Of a DNA stretch of 32,553 bases, positions 21,762 through 32,553 are shown one piece after another (the stretch's first letter is position 1; every line of letters begins with the position of its first letter). The DNA lies in the NCBI GenBank assembly GCA_005773165.1, contig SXHP01000164.1, forward strand, positions 1 to 32,553, written 5' to 3'. Below the pieces are notes generated by a model, which did no database searches, had not been told where the DNA came from, and worked only from the letters and a program-made list of their open reading frames with translations. Origin of the DNA: Sphingomonadales bacterium (GTDB lineage: Bacteria; Pseudomonadota; Alphaproteobacteria; Sphingomonadales; Sphingomonadaceae). A program made the translations under genes and the position numbers.

Positions 21762-23228
21762 GTGGCGAAGGCGGTACAGGTCGACACGGGCGACAGCGTG
21801 GCGACGCTGATCGAGGATGCGCGGGCCGGCGACACGGTGGACGGCGTCACGCTCACCGCCGACATCCCGCGCGGGCACAAAGTCGCGCTGCGCGCCATTC
21901 GGGCGGGTGAGCCGGTGACCAAGTTCGGCTTCCCGATCGGCGTTGCGCGAAAGGCGATCGTCCCCGGCGAGCATGTTCACAGCGGCAATCTTGCGACCGG
22001 TTTGGGCGGCACGCTCGATTACCGCTACGAACTCGCTCCTGCCGCCGTCCTGCCGCACGCCTCGCTCGCGAGCTTCCAAGGCTATGTCCGCGCCGACGGA
22101 CGGGTCGGTACGCGCAACGAGATCTGGGTTCTGCCCACTGTCGGCTGCGTCGCGCGCACCGCGGAGCGGATCGCGCAAGCCTCGGCGCGCGCACTCGGCA
22201 GCCAGATCGACGGCGTTCACGCTTTTGCGCATCCGCACGGTTGCTCGCAACTGGGGCACGACCTCGACGGCACGCGGTCGATTCTGGCGAGCCTCGCCTG
22301 CCATCCGAACGCGAGCGGAGTGTTGATCATCGGCCTCGGCTGCGAAGAAAATCAGATCGCGGCGCTGATCGCGGAGGTGCCGGAGTGGCGTCGGCCTGCG
22401 ATCCGCACCTTGATCGCCCAAGCGAGCGCCGACGAGGTCGAAGAGGGTTGCGCGCTGGTCGCCGAACTCGCTGAACAGGCGACGTGCGAACGGACGACGG
22501 TGGGTCTCGAACGCCTGGTGCTGGGGGTGAAATGCGGCGGGTCGGACGGATTGTCGGGGCTGACCGCGAACCCGCTTGTCGGGCGCGTCAGCGATCGGGT
22601 GAACGCCGCGGGCGGACGCGTGATAGCGACGGAGATCCCCGAGTTGTTCGGAGCCGAGCGGATGCTGATGCGCCGCGCGGCCGACCAACACGTATTCGAT
22701 CGGCTGGTCGAGCTGGTGAACGGCTTCAAGCAGTATTTCATCGATCACGGCGAGCCCGTCTCGGATAATCCTTCCCCCGGCAATGTCGCGGGCGGGATCA
22801 CCACGTTGGAGGAGAAGTCGCTCGGCGCGGTGCAGAAGGCTGGGCACGCGCAGGTCGCCGACGTGATCTCCTACGGCGCGCAGGCGGCGAGGGACGGGCT
22901 GACGATCCTGGAGGCGCCCGGGAACGACGCGGTGTCGTCGACCGCGCTCGCCGCCGCCGGAGCCACCGCTATCCTGTTCACCACCGGGCGCGGCACGCCG
23001 ATGGGCTTTCCGGTTCCGACCGTCAAAATCGCGTCGAACAGCGATCTTGCGCGGCGCAAGCCGGGGTGGATCGACTTCGATGCGGGAGCGGTGCTCGACG
23101 TCGGGATGGATGCGACCGCGGATGCGCTCGTCGCCAGACTCTGCGCGATTTCCTCCGGCGCGGCGACGGCGGCCGAACGCAACGGCGAGCGCGAGATCGC
23201 CATCTGGAAACGAGGGGTAACGCTTTGA
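21762..23228 (+). CDS. uxaA: Altronate dehydratase (fused SAF + catalytic domain)
   Basis: GTG start; FGFPIGVARKAIVPGEHVHSGNLATGL; FQGYVRADGRVGTRNEIWVLPTVGCV; GVKCGGSDGLSGLTANPLVG. Confidence 0.93.
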   Translation: MAKAVQVDTGDSVATLIEDARAGDTVDGVTLTADIPRGHKVALRAIRAGEPVTKFGFPIGVARKAIVPGEHVHSGNLATGLGGTLDYRYELAPAAVLPHASLASFQGYVRADGRVGTRNEIWVLPTVGCVARTAERIAQASARALGSQIDGVHAFAHPHGCSQLGHDLDGTRSILASLACHPNASGVLIIGLGCEENQIAALIAEVPEWRRPAIRTLIAQASADEVEEGCALVAELAEQATCERTTVGLERLVLGVKCGGSDGLSGLTANPLVGRVSDRVNAAGGRVIATEIPELFGAERMLMRRAADQHVFDRLVELVNGFKQYFIDHGEPVSDNPSPGNVAGGITTLEEKSLGAVQKAGHAQVADVISYGAQAARDGLTILEAPGNDAVSSTALAAAGATAILFTTGRGTPMGFPVPTVKIASNSDLARRKPGWIDFDAGAVLDVGMDATADALVARLCAISSGAATAAERNGEREIAIWKRGVTL

Positions 23229-24664
23229 CACTGCTCTCTCGAGCGACGCTCGGACACGTGCCGCAGGCGGTGGCGCGGCCCGCCTATGCCGATGCAGGCG
23301 TCGGAATCGTCCATTTCGGACCGGGCGCGTTTCATCGCGCGCACCAGGCGGCGTATGTCGACGCCTTGCTCGGTGACGATCCCCGATGGGGCATCGCCGC
23401 GGTGTCGCTGCGCACGCGCGGCACGGTGGACGCGCTCAGCCGCCAGGATGGATTGTATACGCTGGCGATCCGCGATGCGGAGCCGTCGATGCGGGTGATC
23501 GGGGCGCACCGGCGTTTCCTGGGGCCCGAAGACGCGGCCGAAACGCGCGCGCTGCTCGCCGACCCAGCAGTCGGGCTGGTGACGGCGACGGTGACCGAAA
23601 AGGGCTATTGCCTCGGCGTAGACGGCACGCTCGATATGGCGCACGCCGACATTGTTCACGATCTGGGCGGAGCCGCGGTTCCGCGGAGCGTGGTCGGGTG
23701 GATCGTCGCGGGTCTGGCGGCCCGGCGAGCCGCGGGCCTCGCGCCCTTCGTGCCGATGCCGTGCGACAATCTCGCGAACAACGGCGCGAAGCTGCACGCC
23801 GCGTTGATCGCCTATGCCGAAGCGAAAGACCAAGGGCTGGCGGACTGGATCGCGGGCGAAGTGCGGGTCCCCTCCACAATGGTCGACTCGATCACACCCG
23901 CGTCTGACGCGGCACTCGAAGCTGCCGTGGCCGCGGGGCTCGGGCTCGAAGATCGCGCGCCGGTGCAGCGCGAGGCGTTCGCGCAATGGGTGATCGAGGA
24001 TGTCGGCGGCATCGGCCCCGACCTCGCGGGGGCTGGCGCGATCGTCACGAACGACGTCGCCGGGTATGAGAAAGCCAAGCTGCGTATCCTGAACGGCGCG
24101 CATTCGACTCTCGCCTATGCCGGACTGCTGCGCGGACATGCGAGCGTCGGCGACGCGATGGGCGACCCCGCGCTCGCCGGGTTCGTCGACGCCATGCTGC
24201 GCGAGGACGTCATCCCCATGCTGCCCGCGATCGCAGGTCTCGATCTCGACGCTTATCGCGCGGCGGTGCTGGCGCGGTTCCGCAATCCGGCGATCGTCCA
24301 CCGGCTGGACCAGATCGCGCAGGACGGATCGCAGAAGCTGCCGTACCGATTGGGCGACACCCTGCTCGCCAACCGCGCGCAGGGCCGGATGCCGACGCGG
24401 ACGGTGGCGGCGTTCGGGTGCTGGATCGCGTTCCTTATGCGACGCGCGCGCGAAGGGACTCCGATCCTGGATCCGCTCGGAAGCCGCCTGGCCGAACTCG
24501 CAGGCCGTGGCAACGCGGCCGACGTGGTCGCGGGGCTTATCGCAAGCGGTAGCGGCGTCCCGCCGGAGGTCGGCGGCGATCACGCGCTTGTCGAGCTGAT
24601 GAAGCACGCGGCGCAATCTGCGGATGCGGCCGCGTGGGAGAACATCATCGGCTCTTGTCACTGA
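23225..24664 (+). CDS. Mannitol dehydrogenase family oxidoreductase (fructuronate/tagaturonate reductase)
   Basis: TTG start at 23225 overlapping the uxaA stop (TTGA), preceded by GAGGGG; VGIVHFGPGAFHRAHQAAYVDALL, VTATVTEKGYCL, FVPMPCDNLANNGAKL. Confidence 0.9.
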   Translation: MTLLSRATLGHVPQAVARPAYADAGVGIVHFGPGAFHRAHQAAYVDALLGDDPRWGIAAVSLRTRGTVDALSRQDGLYTLAIRDAEPSMRVIGAHRRFLGPEDAAETRALLADPAVGLVTATVTEKGYCLGVDGTLDMAHADIVHDLGGAAVPRSVVGWIVAGLAARRAAGLAPFVPMPCDNLANNGAKLHAALIAYAEAKDQGLADWIAGEVRVPSTMVDSITPASDAALEAAVAAGLGLEDRAPVQREAFAQWVIEDVGGIGPDLAGAGAIVTNDVAGYEKAKLRILNGAHSTLAYAGLLRGHASVGDAMGDPALAGFVDAMLREDVIPMLPAIAGLDLDAYRAAVLARFRNPAIVHRLDQIAQDGSQKLPYRLGDTLLANRAQGRMPTRTVAAFGCWIAFLMRRAREGTPILDPLGSRLAELAGRGNAADVVAGLIASGSGVPPEVGGDHALVELMKHAAQSADAAAWENIIGSCH

Positions 24665-24675
24665 CACCGGTTTCC
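24662..24675 (+). promoter_or_regulatory. Putative LacI-type operator, site 4 (TGACACCGGTTTCC) upstream of MhpD-like/MFS pair
   Basis: Begins with the TGA stop codon of the upstream reductase gene; TTGTCA at 24655-24660 could be the -35 box. Confidence 0.72.
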
Positions 24676-24714
24676 CATAGCGTCGCGCGCAAGACCATCA
24701 GGGGAGGATTGGCC

Positions 24715-25503
24715 GTGAATCAACGCGAGCCGACAGAGAATCACGTCGCGGTCGCGCGCAGCTTCGTTGACGCCCGACGTTCGGGCGCCGCGCTGTCCGA
24801 CTATCCGGGCACGGCGCCCGAGACGCTCGCAGACGCCTATCTCGTTCAGGACGCGGCGATCGCGCTGGACGGGCGGCAGGTCGTCGGCTGGAAGGTCGGG
24901 CGGATCAATCCGCCGCGCGGAGGCGCAGACCGGCTCGTCGGCCCGATCTTCGCCGACCAGGTCATCCACCGCGACGGCGCGACGATGCCGGTCATCGTCG
25001 ACGGTTTCGCCGCGGCCGAAGCCGAATTCCTGCTGCGCATCGGCGTTGCGCCCGAGCCGACCAAATTTCGCTACACCATCGACGAAGCGCGCGCATTGAT
25101 CGACGCGGTGCATGTCGGCATCGAGATCGCGAGCTCCCCTTATCCCGGCATCAACGCGGACGGCCCGGCCGTGACGATCAGCGATTTCGGCAACCACAAC
25201 GGCCTGCTGGTCGGCGCGGAAGCGGACGGCTGGCGCGAAAACGACATCACCGGATGGCGCGTCGAGTTGCTGATCGACGGCGAGGCTGCGGGTTCGGCGA
25301 CCGCTGCGGCGATGCTGGACGGCCCGTTCGGCGCAGCGCGCTTCCTCTTCGAGCATGCCGCGGCGCGCGGCGTTGCGCTGAGCGCGGGACAGTGGATTTC
25401 GAGCGGTGCGGTCACCGGTGTTCACGAAGTCAGGGTCGGTCAGCGCGTCGAGGCTCGCTTCGACGGACGGCTCGCCGTAACGTGCGAGATCGAGGCGCAA
25501 TAA
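24715..25503 (+). CDS. 2-keto-4-pentenoate hydratase / fumarylacetoacetate hydrolase-like (MhpD-type) protein
   Basis: GTG 24715 preceded by GGGGAGGA; VGWKVGRINPPRGGADRLVGPIFADQV, AAEAEFLLRIG, HVGIEIASSPYPGINADGPAVTISDFGNHNGLLVG. Confidence 0.85.
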   Translation: MNQREPTENHVAVARSFVDARRSGAALSDYPGTAPETLADAYLVQDAAIALDGRQVVGWKVGRINPPRGGADRLVGPIFADQVIHRDGATMPVIVDGFAAAEAEFLLRIGVAPEPTKFRYTIDEARALIDAVHVGIEIASSPYPGINADGPAVTISDFGNHNGLLVGAEADGWRENDITGWRVELLIDGEAAGSATAAAMLDGPFGAARFLFEHAAARGVALSAGQWISSGAVTGVHEVRVGQRVEARFDGRLAVTCEIEAQ

Positions 25504-25529
25504 GCGCACCCCGGGGGAGGATACGAGCG

Positions 25530-26813
25530 ATGGCGACGGCGGAGACGGGGATGGCGGCGGCGACGGCACGGACCGGCCGTTATCGTTGGGTGATCGTGGC
25601 GATGCTCTTCGCCGCGACCGCCATCAACTACATCGATCGGCAGATGATCGGCGTGCTGAAGCCGACCCTGCAGGGTGAGTTCGGCTGGTCCGAAAAGGAT
25701 TTCGCGGGCATCATCTTCTGGTTCCAGCTTGCATATGCGATCGGGTACCTCGCGTTCGGCAAGGTGGTTGATACGATCGGCGCGCGGCTTGGCTATACGG
25801 TCGCGATCGTCGTCTGGACGATCAGCCACATGGCGCATGGCCTCGCGAGCGGGATCACATCCTTTGCCCTCGCCCGCTTCGGGCTCGGCATCGGTGAATC
25901 GGGGAACTTCCCGGCGGGCATCAAGGCGGTGACCGAGTGGTTTCCCCAGCGGGAGCGCGCTTATGCGATCGGGCTGTTCAACGCGGGCGCCAATGTAGGC
26001 GCGATCATCACCCCGCTGCTGGTGCCTTTCCTGGTGCTCGCCTTTGACTGGCGCGCGGCCTTCTACATCACCGGCGTTTTCGGCATCATATGGCTCGCCG
26101 CCTGGCTGATGATCTATCGTCACCCGGCCGAACACCCGCGTGTGTCCGCGGGCGAGCTCGCCTATATTCAGCAGGATCCAGCTGATCCGGTCGAGCCGAT
26201 GTCCTGGGGTCGGGTCGCGACGATTCGGGAGACCTGGGCTTATGCGCTGGGCAAGTTCTTCATCGATCCGATCTGGTGGTTCTTTCTGTTCTGGCTGCCG
26301 GGCTATCTGTTCGAGCGCTACGATCTCGACCTCAAGACCTTCGGCCTGCCGCTCGCGGCCATCTACCTGATTTCGGACTTCGGCAGCATCGCAGGCGGCT
26401 GGATGTCGTCCAAGCTGATCGCGGCAGGCAAGACGCCCAATTATGCCCGCAAGCTGACCATGTTCGTCTGCGCCGTGTGCGTGCTGCCCATCTTCTTCGC
26501 GCAAGGGATCAGCAGCGTCTGGGGCGCGGTTGCGGTGATCGGGCTGGCGACAGCGGCGCACCAGGCGTTCTCGGCCAACCTGTACACATTGCCGTCGGAC
26601 ATCTTCCCACGTGGAGCGGTCGGGTCGGTGATCGGCATCGGCGGGACGGTTGGGGCGATCGGCGGCATGGGAATGGCGCTGTTCACCGGCTACATCCTGG
26701 ACGCGACGAACAACAATTACTCCATCCTGTTCGCGATCGCAGGAAGCGCCTATTTCGTGGCGCTCGCGGCGGTCCACCTCCTCAGCCCGAGCCTGGCGCG
26801 GGTCGAGGCCTGA
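25530..26813 (+). CDS. MFS transporter, hexuronate (ExuT)-like anion:cation symporter
   Basis: RYRWVIVAMLFAATAINYIDRQMIGVLKPTLQGEFGWSEKDFAGIIFWFQLAYAIGYLAFGKVVDTIGARLGY; FGLGIGESGNFPAGIKAVTEWFPQRERAYAIGLFNAGANVGAII. Confidence 0.92.
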   Translation: MATAETGMAAATARTGRYRWVIVAMLFAATAINYIDRQMIGVLKPTLQGEFGWSEKDFAGIIFWFQLAYAIGYLAFGKVVDTIGARLGYTVAIVVWTISHMAHGLASGITSFALARFGLGIGESGNFPAGIKAVTEWFPQRERAYAIGLFNAGANVGAIITPLLVPFLVLAFDWRAAFYITGVFGIIWLAAWLMIYRHPAEHPRVSAGELAYIQQDPADPVEPMSWGRVATIRETWAYALGKFFIDPIWWFFLFWLPGYLFERYDLDLKTFGLPLAAIYLISDFGSIAGGWMSSKLIAAGKTPNYARKLTMFVCAVCVLPIFFAQGISSVWGAVAVIGLATAAHQAFSANLYTLPSDIFPRGAVGSVIGIGGTVGAIGGMGMALFTGYILDATNNNYSILFAIAGSAYFVALAAVHLLSPSLARVEA

Positions 26814-28453: not shown

Positions 28454-29035
28454 TTGCGGATCGTCATCGTCGACGACAGCGGATTGCGGGCGACCGTTCT
28501 GGAGGACGGGCTGCGCGAGGCGGGCTATGAGGACATCCACCTCGTCCCGCCCCGCGGCGCGTTCGTTGCGCGGATCGAGCGGATGGCGCCCGACGTGGTG
28601 CTGATGGACCTTGGGAACCCCAGCCGGGACACGCTGGAAGAGATGCTGACGGTGAGCCGCGCTCTCGCCAAGCCGATCGCGATGTTCGTCGACCAGTCGG
28701 ACGACACGATGATCGGCGCGGCGATCGACGCGGGCGTGTCGGCCTATGTCGTCGACGGGCTGCGCAAGGAGCGGGTCAGGCCTATCATCGACCTGGCGGT
28801 GCGCCGCTTCAATGCCTTCGCGCGGATGCAGACCGAATTGCACGAAGCCCGCACCGAACTCGCCGACCGTAAGACGATCGACCGCGCCAAGGCGATCCTG
28901 ATGTCGACGCGCGGGCTGTCGGAGCCCGACGCCTATGCGCTGCTGCGAAAGGCTGCGATGAACGGGAACAAGAAGATCGTCGACGTCGCCGCCGCGCTGA
29001 TCACCGCGAACGACTTGTTGGGAGGCGGCGCATGA
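28454..29035 (+). CDS. nasT: NasT-like ANTAR-domain response regulator / RNA-binding antiterminator
   Basis: TTG start; receiver-like MRIVIVDDSGLRATVLEDGLREAGY; C-terminal ANTAR: KTIDRAKAILMSTRGLSEPDAYALLRKAAMNGNKKIVDVAAALITANDLL; immediately upstream of nasS. Confidence 0.93.
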   Translation: MRIVIVDDSGLRATVLEDGLREAGYEDIHLVPPRGAFVARIERMAPDVVLMDLGNPSRDTLEEMLTVSRALAKPIAMFVDQSDDTMIGAAIDAGVSAYVVDGLRKERVRPIIDLAVRRFNAFARMQTELHEARTELADRKTIDRAKAILMSTRGLSEPDAYALLRKAAMNGNKKIVDVAAALITANDLLGGGA

Positions 29036-30240
29036 TCCCGGTCTCGATCGCCTTTCTGCAGCTCACCGACTCCGCTCCACTGATCGTCGCGCGCGAGCGG
29101 GGTTTTGCCGAGGCGGAGGGAATCGACCTTTCCCTTGTTCGCACGACGAGCTGGGCGACGCTGCGCGATCGGCTGGTCTACGGCCAGGTGCAGGCGGCGC
29201 AGATGCTGGCCCCGCTCGCGGTCGCGGTGACGCTCGGGCTAAGCCAGCAGCCGGCGCCGCTCGCCGCGCCGTACAAGCTGAACGTCAACGGCAACATGCT
29301 GGTGATGTCGGGCGAGTTCGCTGCGGCGCTTGCGCCCGACCTCCGGCAGCGACTCGATGATCCGCTCGGGACCGCGCACGATTTCGCCGCTGCGATCGGG
29401 CTGTTCCGTCGCAAGCCCGTGATCGGCGTGGTCCACCGCTTCTCGTCACACGCGCTGATGCTCCGCTACTGGCTGGCGAGCGCGGGAATCGACCCCGATC
29501 GCGACGTCGTGCTGCGGGTGATGCCGCCGTCTTTGATGGTCGAGGGCGTACGCAGCGGCGAGACCGACGGGTTCATCGCGGGCGAGCCGTGGGGGAGCGC
29601 GGCAGTAGAGGCCGGGCTCGCCGAGGCGGTGGCGATCGGCGAGCGCATTTGGCGGCGCGGGATCGAGAAGGTGCTGGCGTTCCGCGAGAGGTGGCTGGAG
29701 GACAATGCGGACACCGTCGATCGGCTGCTCCGCGCGACCGCCGCCGCGGCGGCGTGGTGTGACGCGCCCGAGAACCGCATCGCGCTCGCCGCGCTGCTCG
29801 CCCGCGCGGAATATGTCGACCAGCCGGTGGCGGTGATCGAGCGGGCGCTCGGCGGCGCGATCGTGCCGCGTGCGGGCGACGCGCCCCTGCCCTTCCCCGA
29901 CTTCATGCTCTTCGCGCGCGAGGCGACCGAGTTCCCCTGGCGGAGTCAGGCGCTGTGGATCTACTCGCAGCTCGTTCGGTGGCGAATGGTCGAGCCGAGC
30001 GCCGAAGCCGAGGCCGCCGCGGCCGCGGTGTTCCGCCCCGACGTGTACCGGCGGGCGCTGGCCGGCGGGGATACCGCGATGCCCGGCGCCAGCATGAAGG
30101 TGGAAGGTGCGCTCGCCTCGCCGCTTGCGGTGGGCGCGCACGGGGGAGCGATCACGCTGGGCCCGGACAGGTTTTTCGATGGGCGGGTGTTCGATCCGGA
30201 GCGGGTCGGGGAATATGTGGCGGGGTTTGGGTCCAAGTAG
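29032..30240 (+). CDS. nasS: NasS-like nitrate sensor (NrtA/CmpA-type periplasmic-binding fold lacking signal peptide)
   Basis: ATGA overlap with nasT; MIPVSIAFLQLTDSAPLIVARERGFAEAEGIDLSLVRTTSWATLRDRLVYGQVQAAQMLAPLAVAVTLG. Confidence 0.92.
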   Translation: MIPVSIAFLQLTDSAPLIVARERGFAEAEGIDLSLVRTTSWATLRDRLVYGQVQAAQMLAPLAVAVTLGLSQQPAPLAAPYKLNVNGNMLVMSGEFAAALAPDLRQRLDDPLGTAHDFAAAIGLFRRKPVIGVVHRFSSHALMLRYWLASAGIDPDRDVVLRVMPPSLMVEGVRSGETDGFIAGEPWGSAAVEAGLAEAVAIGERIWRRGIEKVLAFRERWLEDNADTVDRLLRATAAAAAWCDAPENRIALAALLARAEYVDQPVAVIERALGGAIVPRAGDAPLPFPDFMLFAREATEFPWRSQALWIYSQLVRWRMVEPSAEAEAAAAAVFRPDVYRRALAGGDTAMPGASMKVEGALASPLAVGAHGGAITLGPDRFFDGRVFDPERVGEYVAGFGSK

Positions 30241-30267
30241 AGTTTTGACCCTTGGTCCAGCTTCCTC

Positions 30268-30376
30268 CGTCACCCCGGACTTGTTCCGGGGTCCAGGGTT
30301 CCGCAAGCTATGCGGATCGAGGCTCGAGCTTCATCGCCTTCCGCACGCTGGACCCCGGAACAAGTCCGGGGTGACG
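30268..30376. repeat. Composite REP-like palindromic element with perfect 29-bp inverted arms
   Basis: Left arm 30268-30296 CGTCACCCCGGACTTGTTCCGGGGTCCAG is the exact reverse complement of 30348-30376. Each arm holds a smaller hairpin (CCCCGGA cttgt TCCGGGG); the inner part contains CCGCA agcta TGCGG. Confidence 0.95.
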
Positions 30377-30453
30377 TAGTATTCGGAAGCAGCGTCGACC
30401 CGTACATTTTCCGCATTGCAACATGGATCGAATCGCGAGATAACTTCACCCGA

Positions 30454-30469
30454 CGCGCAACGAGGCGCG
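30454..30469 (+). promoter_or_regulatory. Putative ANTAR hexaloop hairpin P1 of nitrate-transporter leader
   Basis: CGCGC-AACGAG-GCGCG: 5-bp stem, 6-nt loop with A at position 1 and G at position 4. Confidence 0.65.
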
Positions 30470-30524
30470 CCCGTTTGGATGATGCGCCCCGAGGATGGGG
30501 CCCGGATCGTCTCACCAGAATAAG

Positions 30525-30538
30525 CAGCAGAGCCGCTG
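30525..30538 (+). promoter_or_regulatory. Putative ANTAR hexaloop hairpin P2, overlapping the terminator 5' arm
   Basis: CAGC-AGAGCC-GCTG: 4-bp stem, 6-nt loop with A1 and G4; its 3' part (30533-30538) is also the start of the terminator 5' arm. Confidence 0.65.
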
Positions 30539-30579
30539 ACCGGATGTCGCCCACGCGATTTCCGGCGAGCGGTTTTTTT
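30533..30579 (+). terminator. Intrinsic terminator (attenuator) in 5' leader of the MFS nitrate transporter
   Basis: CCGCTgaCCGGA (30533-30544) pairs with TCCGGcgAGCGG (30561-30572) with a 2-nt internal mismatch, followed by TTTTTTT (30573-30579), 30 nt upstream of the ATG. Confidence 0.8.
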
Positions 30580-30609
30580 CGTGTCCACCTCCCACCGGGA
30601 GACCAGATC

Positions 30610-31851
30610 ATGGCGACAGCATTTCTGGACGGCGCAGCGCCCGTCACACCAGCACCCGACAAGAGCTTCTGGCGCGCCGGGCACAGCCCGACGCTGGTCG
30701 CAGCGTTCCTCTACTTTGACCTCGCATTCATGGTGTGGGTGGTGCTGGGACCGCTCGCGCCCGAGATCAGCAAGACGCTGATGCTGACTCCGGCCGAAAA
30801 GGGGCTGATGGTGGCGACGCCGACCCTTGCGGGCGCGTTGCTACGGGTCGTCGTCGGGCTGCTCGTCGACCGGGTCGGGCCGAAGCGCTCGGGCGCGATC
30901 AGCCAGTTGATCGTCATCGGCGGCTTGTTCTCGGCATGGCTGCTCGGAGTGAACAGCTTTGCGGGCACGCTCGCGCTGGGCGTCATCCTGGGCTTTGCGG
31001 GGGCGAGCTTCGCAATCGCGCTGCCGCTCGCCAGCCGCTGGTATCCGCCCGAGCATCAGGGCAAGGCGATGGGGCTCGCCGGCATGGGCAATTCGGGCAC
31101 GGTGCTCGCCGCGCTGTTCGCGCCGACGCTGGCCAAGGCGTTCGGCTGGAACGCTGTGCTTGGCCTCGCGTGCCTTCCGCTCGGCCTGGTCTTCATCGCG
31201 TACATGATCATGGCGAAGGATGCGCCGAACGCGCCTGCGCCAAAGCGGATCGTCGATTATTTCGCGCCGCTGAAAACAGCGGACGCGTGGTGGCTGATGG
31301 CGTTCTATTCGGTGACGTTCGGCGGCTTCGTCGGGCTCGCCGCGAGCCTGCCGATCTACTTCACCGATCGCTTCGGCCTGACCCCGATCACCGCGGGCTA
31401 TTGCACTGCGGCCTGCGTGTTCGCGGGTTCGCTGATCCGCCCGATGGGCGGCGCGCTGGCCGATGCAATCGGCGGCGTGAAGGCGCTGTCGGCCGTGTTC
31501 GTCGCGGCGGCGGTCGCGCTCGCGTTTGTCGGCTATGCTCCCAGCGTCGAAGCGGCGCTGGCGCTGTTCGTCGGGGCGATGCTGGCGCTGGGTGCGGGCA
31601 ACGGCGCGGTGTTCCAGCTCGTGCCGCAGCGGTTCGCCGCGGAGATCGGGGTGATGACCGGGCTGGTCGGCATGGCGGGAGGGGTCGGCGGCTTCTATCT
31701 CGCCTCCTCGCTCGGCATCGCCAAGCAGGTGACGGGAAGCTTCTCGCCCGGGTTCCTGATCTTCGCCGGACTGTCGCTTGCCGCGCTCGTCGGGCTGACC
31801 GCGGTCAAGACCGGCTGGCGCGCGCGCTGGGGCGGAGCCGCGCGCATCTGA
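30610..31851 (+). CDS. MFS nitrate/nitrite transporter (NarK/NasA type)
   Basis: ATG 30610 (MATAFLDGAAPVTP); FDLAFMVWVVLGPLAPEISKTLMLTPAEKGLMVATPTLAGALLRVVVGLLVDRVGPKRSG; GFAGASFAIALPLASRWYPPEHQGKAMGLAGMGNSGTVLAALFAP. Confidence 0.93.
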   Translation: MATAFLDGAAPVTPAPDKSFWRAGHSPTLVAAFLYFDLAFMVWVVLGPLAPEISKTLMLTPAEKGLMVATPTLAGALLRVVVGLLVDRVGPKRSGAISQLIVIGGLFSAWLLGVNSFAGTLALGVILGFAGASFAIALPLASRWYPPEHQGKAMGLAGMGNSGTVLAALFAPTLAKAFGWNAVLGLACLPLGLVFIAYMIMAKDAPNAPAPKRIVDYFAPLKTADAWWLMAFYSVTFGGFVGLAASLPIYFTDRFGLTPITAGYCTAACVFAGSLIRPMGGALADAIGGVKALSAVFVAAAVALAFVGYAPSVEAALALFVGAMLALGAGNGAVFQLVPQRFAAEIGVMTGLVGMAGGVGGFYLASSLGIAKQVTGSFSPGFLIFAGLSLAALVGLTAVKTGWRARWGGAARI

Positions 31852-31896: not shown

Positions 31897-32553
31897 ATGA
31901 AAGCTGTACTCGCAACGGCGGCGGCGGTGGCCGCCGCAGGACCGGCGTGCGCGCAAGGGGTGACGCTCACCCCGCTCGCCGACGTTCGCGTTCGTCACGA
32001 GCATGTCGAGCAGGACGGTTTCCTAAAGAACGCCGATGCGGTCACGGTGCGCCTGAGGACCGGGCTGCAAGCGGCGAGCGGACCGTGGAGCGTCGCGGTC
32101 GAGGCGCAGGGAACGCTGGCCCCTGTCGACCGATACTTCGACGGGCTGAACGGGCTGACGACCCGCCCGCTCATCGCCGACCCGGAGAGTATCGGATTGT
32201 ACCGCGCGCAGGCGCAATACCGGACGGAGGCGCTGGCGGTCACCGCAGGACGGCAGCGGATCGTGCTGGACGACGAGCGCTTTGTCGCAGCTGCGCCGTT
32301 TCGGCAGAACGCGCAGACCTTCGACGCTGTGCGGGCGGAGATCGGCGCTTTGCCGAACTTCAAGCTGGACGTCAGCTATGCGTGGGGCGTGCGGACGATC
32401 TGGGGAATCGACGGGCGAGGCGCGCGGCAGCAGGCCATCGGCGGCGACAATCTGTTCGCCAATCTGTCCTATGCGACCCCGGTCGGCACCCTGGTCGGTT
32501 TCGCTTACCTGGTCGACCAGGACGAAGCGGCGGTTCAGGGGTTCCGTCAGTCG
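31897..32553 (+). CDS. Outer-membrane porin-like protein, alginate-export family, partial at window edge
   Basis: ATG 31897 with AGAGGAG upstream; MKAVLATAAAVAAAGPACAQG leader then VTLTPLADVRVRHEHVEQDGFLKNADAVTVRLRTGLQA...LYRAQAQYRTEALAVTAGRQRIVLDDERFVAAAPFRQNAQTFDAVRAE; open to window end. Confidence 0.8.
   Translation, partial: MKAVLATAAAVAAAGPACAQGVTLTPLADVRVRHEHVEQDGFLKNADAVTVRLRTGLQAASGPWSVAVEAQGTLAPVDRYFDGLNGLTTRPLIADPESIGLYRAQAQYRTEALAVTAGRQRIVLDDERFVAAAPFRQNAQTFDAVRAEIGALPNFKLDVSYAWGVRTIWGIDGRGARQQAIGGDNLFANLSYATPVGTLVGFAYLVDQDEAAVQGFRQS

Follow-up and report, generated by a model that had tools for sequence, protein, structure and literature searches.

ANTAR proteins are known to control several bacterial leaders by antitermination. 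In Enterococcus, the targets of EutV carry two closely spaced hexaloop hairpins, P1 and P2, with G at loop position 4 (G4) and mostly A at position 1 (A1); the last hairpin overlaps an intrinsic terminator, the regulated genes are nitrogen genes, and the ANTAR protein is a dedicated one with a kinase partner (PMC3369931, PMC8934654). For antitermination, EutV depends on both P1 and P2, on A1/G4 in the loops and on a linker of about 5–12 nt (PMC3369931, PMC8934654), and ANTAR leaders act by stabilising P2 against the terminator (PMC3369931, PMC3369936). In the model drawn from solved EutV–RNA structures, a single dimer holds one loop at a time, P1 and then P2, and G4 is the sole base-specific contact (PMC8934654). 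When A1 was swapped for another base, both EutV binding and induction were weaker. The nasF leader of Klebsiella oxytoca, the target of NasR, also has A1/G4 hexaloops, an antiterminator P2 that competes with a terminator, and nitrate as the signal (PMC3369936).

In Paracoccus denitrificans, the nasT-nasS pair lies beside its nas target and the leader has hairpins (PMC3795266, PMC5424462). Nitrate releases NasT from NasS, NasT binds the nasA leader RNA when nitrate is present, and the size of free NasT fits a hexamer (PMC3795266). In Bradyrhizobium, where nos and nap are under NasS-NasT control, NasT-type hairpins have been predicted before narK and nirA as well (PMC6759348).

The window analysed here, a stretch of 32,553 nt, was one entire contig (C134; right edge at 32553) of a metagenome-assembled, Sphingomonadaceae-type draft genome (2.54 Mb, 348 contigs, 67% complete). 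Analysis of the genes, all on the forward strand, bore out the gene neighbourhood given by the initial annotation. The nasT gene (28454–29035, TTG start) encoded a response-regulator-like protein with a receiver and an ANTAR domain (Response_reg E = 1.7e-8; ANTAR E = 2.9e-20), and nasS (29032–30240) encoded a nitrate-sensor-like protein of the NMT1_2 family (PF13379, E = 5.4e-62). The NasS-type partner adjoined NasT in the window and this synteny was kept in relatives; the orthologues of nasT adjoining nasS in Sphingomonadaceae shared 53–88% identity, and the closest named relatives of NasT belonged to Sphingomonas and Sphingobium. One ANTAR gene was detected in the incomplete genome, and it was the nasT directly upstream of the leader. 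After an intergenic gap of 369 bp, nasS was followed by the regulated gene (30610–31851), which encoded a NarK-family MFS nitrate/nitrite transporter (TIGR00886, 266.9 bits, below the cut-off of 311.7). A porin-like outer-membrane gene (Alginate_exp, PF13372, E = 7.7e-6; 31897–32553, truncated by the contig end) started 45 nt past the MFS gene and is probably on the same transcript; the same MFS-porin order was found in many relatives.

In 4 of 12 aligned NasT proteins (L052, L077, L087, and L091), the receiver aspartate D52 was replaced by asparagine. These changes agree with control by NasS, not by phosphorylation.

Folding of the whole leader revealed a hexaloop hairpin between the two that had been annotated, and the leader thus has three hexaloops, not two. 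All leader elements lay on the forward strand. The extra 5' hairpin, P0 (CGCGC-AACGAG-GCGCG, 30454–30469), had been called P1 by the initial annotation; P1 proper (30477–30512) consisted of an apical hairpin GCCCC-GAGGAU-GGGGC (30486–30501, loop 30491–30496) on a basal helix, and the antiterminator hexaloop P2 (CAGC-AGAGCC-GCTG) lay at 30525–30538. The letters and coordinates given earlier for the two outer hairpins were correct, and so was the reading of A1 and G4 in their loops (AACGAG and AGAGCC). The P1 loop, GAGGAU, has G1 and G4, and it was overlooked because it begins with G. The supposed linker of 55 nt contained this third hairpin; measured between stem bases, the gaps were 7 nt from P0 to P1 and 12 nt from P1 to P2/terminator, while the apical hairpins alone were separated by 16 and 23 nt.

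The intrinsic terminator (30529–30579) ended with a T7 tract (30573–30579), as annotated, and its minimum free energy stem extended over 30529–30576. The segment 30520–30579 folded at -30.9 kcal/mol (z = -5.9), against -5.0 kcal/mol for P2 alone. The terminator stem overlapped the loop and the 3' arm of P2, and P2 and the terminator are therefore mutually exclusive, as had been proposed.

Compared with the described systems, the leader had both shared and distinct features. The gaps of 7 and 12 nt fit the EutV linker requirement and 55 nt does not, which supports the three-hairpin layout. As in the EutV and NasR targets, P2 shared bases with the 5' arm of the terminator, an arrangement retained in relatives, and the loops were A1/G4 hexaloops except for position 1 of the P1 loop. 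Unlike the EutV targets, the window had three hexaloops, a middle loop starting with G, a P1 placed on a long basal helix, and NasS as the signal partner; NasR differs in being a one-component NIT-ANTAR sensor that acts on two hexaloops. The openly available portions of the Paracoccus and Bradyrhizobium papers speak of two hairpins (HI and HII) or "a series of regulatory hairpins" (PMC3795266, PMC5424462, PMC6759348), and a three-hexaloop array of fixed spacing with a P0 at the start site is absent from those portions. The ANTAR/NasT switch type is thus known, and, as far as the openly available papers show, the three-hexaloop form, conserved in related bacteria, appears to be new.

NasT was searched in 201 genomes of the family and 60 surrounding loci were retrieved. 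Comparative alignment of the leaders, a check that the initial annotation had suggested, showed that P2 and the base of the terminator were nearly invariant in sequence among close relatives. The hairpin just 5' of P2 varied in its letters and mostly kept an A1/G4 hexaloop; it corresponds to the middle hairpin of the window, and the true P1 is therefore 30477–30512. P0 had a counterpart hexaloop in 13 class-I leaders preceding the MFS gene. A purpose-built covariance model (R1) was constructed from these 13 leaders; it matched the window, itself one of the training rows, with 99.9 bits (E = 1.3e-21), and 44 of the 401 Sphingomonadaceae genomes contained leaders that it matched. Leaders held out of the training set mostly kept P0, P1 and P2 in order, and among the held-out MFS leaders nearly all did so.

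Comparison with shuffled sequences showed that the ordered array was conserved far above expectation. Single hairpins were unremarkable: a lone P0-like hairpin was rejected as evidence, with CGCGCRANGNNGCGCG occurring 12 times in the genome itself and 11 times as the reversed-pattern control. Of the 21 class-I leaders, 13 had, 5' of P2, two or more hexaloops that began with a purine and carried G as the fourth base (R1/G4), where dinucleotide shuffling predicted 0.02. A set of 120 distinct nasTS-linked leaders was assembled from the initial 60 loci together with 80 named loci from a genome scan; in this set, hairpins with six-base loops were enriched (115 vs 15.6 in shuffles) and at least three R1/G4 hexaloops occurred in 55 (0.4% of shuffles). 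When the segment between P0 and P2 was folded alone, 24 of 27 leaders gave an R1/G4 hexaloop, compared with 0.7 in shuffles. Linkers were near-constant, at about 6 and 11 nt, in the leaders with P0, and 20 leaders satisfied all array criteria combined (0.02 in shuffles).

With no filter on loop letters, the 85 P1 loops had A1 in 67, G1 in 14 and G4 in 81, and the 28 P0 loops had A1 in 11, G1 in 15, A2 in 24 and G4 in 25. Double changes were found in the stems of P0, P1 (apical helix) and the terminator; the leaders used for these pair counts had been selected for the presence of P0, and the counts lean towards the proposed structure. The P0 stem was retained in relatives through compensatory or G-U changes, and the outer and inner helices of the terminator were conserved, with covariation in the inner helix. 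P0 was not universal in Sphingomonadaceae: its loop had 5, 7 or 8 bases, or the hairpin was missing, in L033, L039, L044, L047, L048, L050, and L051. Among the leaders adjoining nasS, P0 was absent or had a loop of five or seven bases in one subgroup (L033, L044, L047, L048, L050, and L051), and in most of these loci another gene separated the leader from the MFS gene.

A second, independent set of leaders, anchored only on the P2 core and the T-run, was obtained before nirB. In many Sphingomonadaceae, nirB had its own NasT-type leader with three hexaloops (L034, L040, L042, L050, L178, and L179), and at least two upstream R1/G4 hexaloops were present in 23 of 48 distinct nirB leaders (0.02 in shuffles). 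The P0 stems of the nirB leaders were quite different, and their loops were mostly A1/G4. The P1 loop of the window, GAGGAT in DNA letters, was also the P1 loop of the nirB leaders L034 and L179, a recurrence that speaks against a sequencing error in the G1 loop. In the genus of the window (G283), locus L180 contained, in this order, genes for the MFS transporter, NirB (TIGR02374, 957 bits), a nitrate-reductase-like protein and a uroporphyrinogen methyltransferase, with a second leader between the MFS gene and nirB. A second leader of the nirB type was not found in the source genome, which is 67% complete and in which the contig stops at 32553.

Roughly 1.2 Mb of the retrieved loci, chiefly the surroundings of nasTS, were scanned without regard to gene content. 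Nearly all further leaders that emerged lay before genes of the nitrate-assimilation type; the reversed sequence of the same loci gave zero matches. The genes that followed these leaders were nirB, the MFS gene, and those for a substrate-binding-type protein, a cobA-type methyltransferase and, in L184, one lipoprotein-like ORF.

Triple arrays were also found in some other Alphaproteobacteria (L154, L167, L169, and L172; also Mesorhizobium, Aurantimonas, and Nitratireductor). In other classes of the phylum, 14 of the 17 leaders found had two hexaloops, and betaproteobacterial and gammaproteobacterial NasT leaders were mostly of the two-hexaloop form. By the most sparing count, the three-hexaloop label switched 16 times on the NasT tree. 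At least three hexaloops were present in 43 of 57 leaders with the MFS gene downstream and in 12 of 63 others; on the NasT tree these raw counts shrank to only about five independent comparisons, and no link between the triple form and the MFS gene was drawn from them.

Upstream of P0, a -35-like TTGCAA (30416–30421) and a -10-like GATAAC (30439–30444), separated by a 17-nt spacer, were predicted on the forward strand from the sequence and from comparison of upstream regions. The strict consensus sigma-70 scan detected no promoter. The two elements were taken as the putative promoter because TTGC preceded the P0 stem by 37–38 nt in each of the 28 measured leaders, 26 of them distinct. Transcription would then be expected to start at about 30450–30453, and the constant spacing suggests that P0 is probably the first element transcribed, a structure at the very 5' end of the transcript. 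In the region before P0, the Sphingomonadaceae leaders shared a T-rich / TTGCAC..TTGC element (30403–30421 in the window), which is a possible activator site; several other Alphaproteobacteria instead carried a TGGCAC-N5-TTGC-like (sigma-54-like) sequence.

The position of the leader, with nasT and nasS immediately 5' and a NarK-family transporter gene immediately 3', and the competition of P2 with the intrinsic terminator make it almost certain that antitermination by NasT (ANTAR) acts here. The mechanism class of the initial annotation is thus upheld by anatomy, neighbourhood and conservation, while its assignment of P1 and its two-hexaloop layout are not. Three hairpins at regular spacing, an exclusive terminator, linkage to nasTS and conservation of the array were all obtained by computation on this leader and its relatives; release of NasT from NasS by nitrate, binding of NasT and antitermination would hold here by analogy with other systems. 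On these grounds, the element is very probably a nitrate-responsive ANTAR-type antitermination switch with three hexaloop hairpins, to which NasT is predicted to bind. The G1 loop of P1 would count against this three-hairpin switch, if the EutV A1 mutants are a guide.

According to the proposed mechanism, transcription would start at about 30450, P0 would be made first, P1 after another 7 nt, and P2 a further 12 nt on. Without nitrate, NasS would hold NasT, the far more stable terminator would displace P2, and the transcript would end near 30579. With nitrate, NasS would release NasT, which may load on the emerging P0 and/or P1 and may pass to, or also hold, P2 before the terminator forms; the polymerase would then read through into the transporter and porin genes. 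A relay, in which P0 and P1 serve as successive NasT loading sites and P2 as the antiterminator, with a purine (A/G) at loop position 1, or else a platform for three NasT dimers, in line with the hexamer-like size of free Paracoccus NasT, could operate in Sphingomonadaceae at both the transporter operon and the nirB operon, and we consider the case for it evenly balanced. The least certain part of the proposed mechanism is the use of P0 by NasT, since P0 may be only a stem at the 5' end.

The status of P0 is also where other readings diverge. If P1 and P2 were the working pair, P0 could be a stem that protects the RNA or aids promoter escape and that NasT ignores. The fixed distance to the -35-like element and the loops of other than six bases in one subgroup agree with such a role, which is a tentative possibility. 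However, the P0 loops were overwhelmingly six bases long with R1, A2 and G4, which argues against a plain protecting stem because such a stem needs no specific loop, and the P0 hairpins of the nirB leaders also kept mostly A1/G4 loops despite their different stems. The same fixed spacing, together with CGCGC/GCGCG stem letters that were much alike across many MFS leaders, could suit a DNA operator, a dyad over the transcription start recognised by a repressor or activator. This is very improbable, as changes in the stems preserved pairing, in part through G-U pairs that form only in RNA, while A2 and G4 of the loop stayed constant.

The arrangement drawn by the initial annotation, in which P0 and P2 work together across a linker of 55 nt, has in its favour that both loops are A1/G4, in contrast to the G1 of the middle loop. 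Other leaders, however, also had G1 in a middle or 5' hairpin, and it was the middle hairpin that was conserved beside P2, its loops being A1/G4 and its stem showing double changes; EutV moreover tolerates short linkers only (PMC3369931, PMC8934654). We regard that pairing as improbable. A constitutive attenuator, or the 3' end of nasTS, with chance hexaloops and no control by NasT would explain why a terminator sits between nasS and the MFS gene, and single hexaloops are frequent by chance; it is hardly tenable given that the array and the competition between P2 and the terminator were conserved in many genomes and before several nitrate genes.

The proposed three-hexaloop switch bears on how ANTAR targets are recognised, since these have been described and searched for as dual hexaloops and the conserved triple array departs from that. 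A triple array locked to the predicted promoter, at two operons and in many genomes, offers a natural test of whether an ANTAR dimer binds two loops at once or stepwise. The G1 loops suggest that loop position 1 may be G; if so, dual-motif searches that demand A1 would miss or misplace hairpins, as happened in this leader.

Search of the Rfam database showed that the leader matched no family above the curated gathering score. Sub-threshold matches were rejected, as they looked like chance, and among these weak results a spurious miRNA match was due to a REP-like inverted repeat of 57 nt (30265–30379, arms TCACCCCGGACTTGTTCCGGGGTCCA) between nasS and the predicted promoter. The core of this repeat had 166 copies in the genome with at most 3 mismatches. 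The distance from nasS to P2 in the window exceeded that of nearly all relatives examined. Further upstream, the ORFs at 23066–26813 resembled, by eye, a fructuronate/mannitol-type dehydrogenase, a fumarylacetoacetate-hydrolase-like protein and an MFS sugar-acid transporter, and perhaps form a cluster for uronate use.
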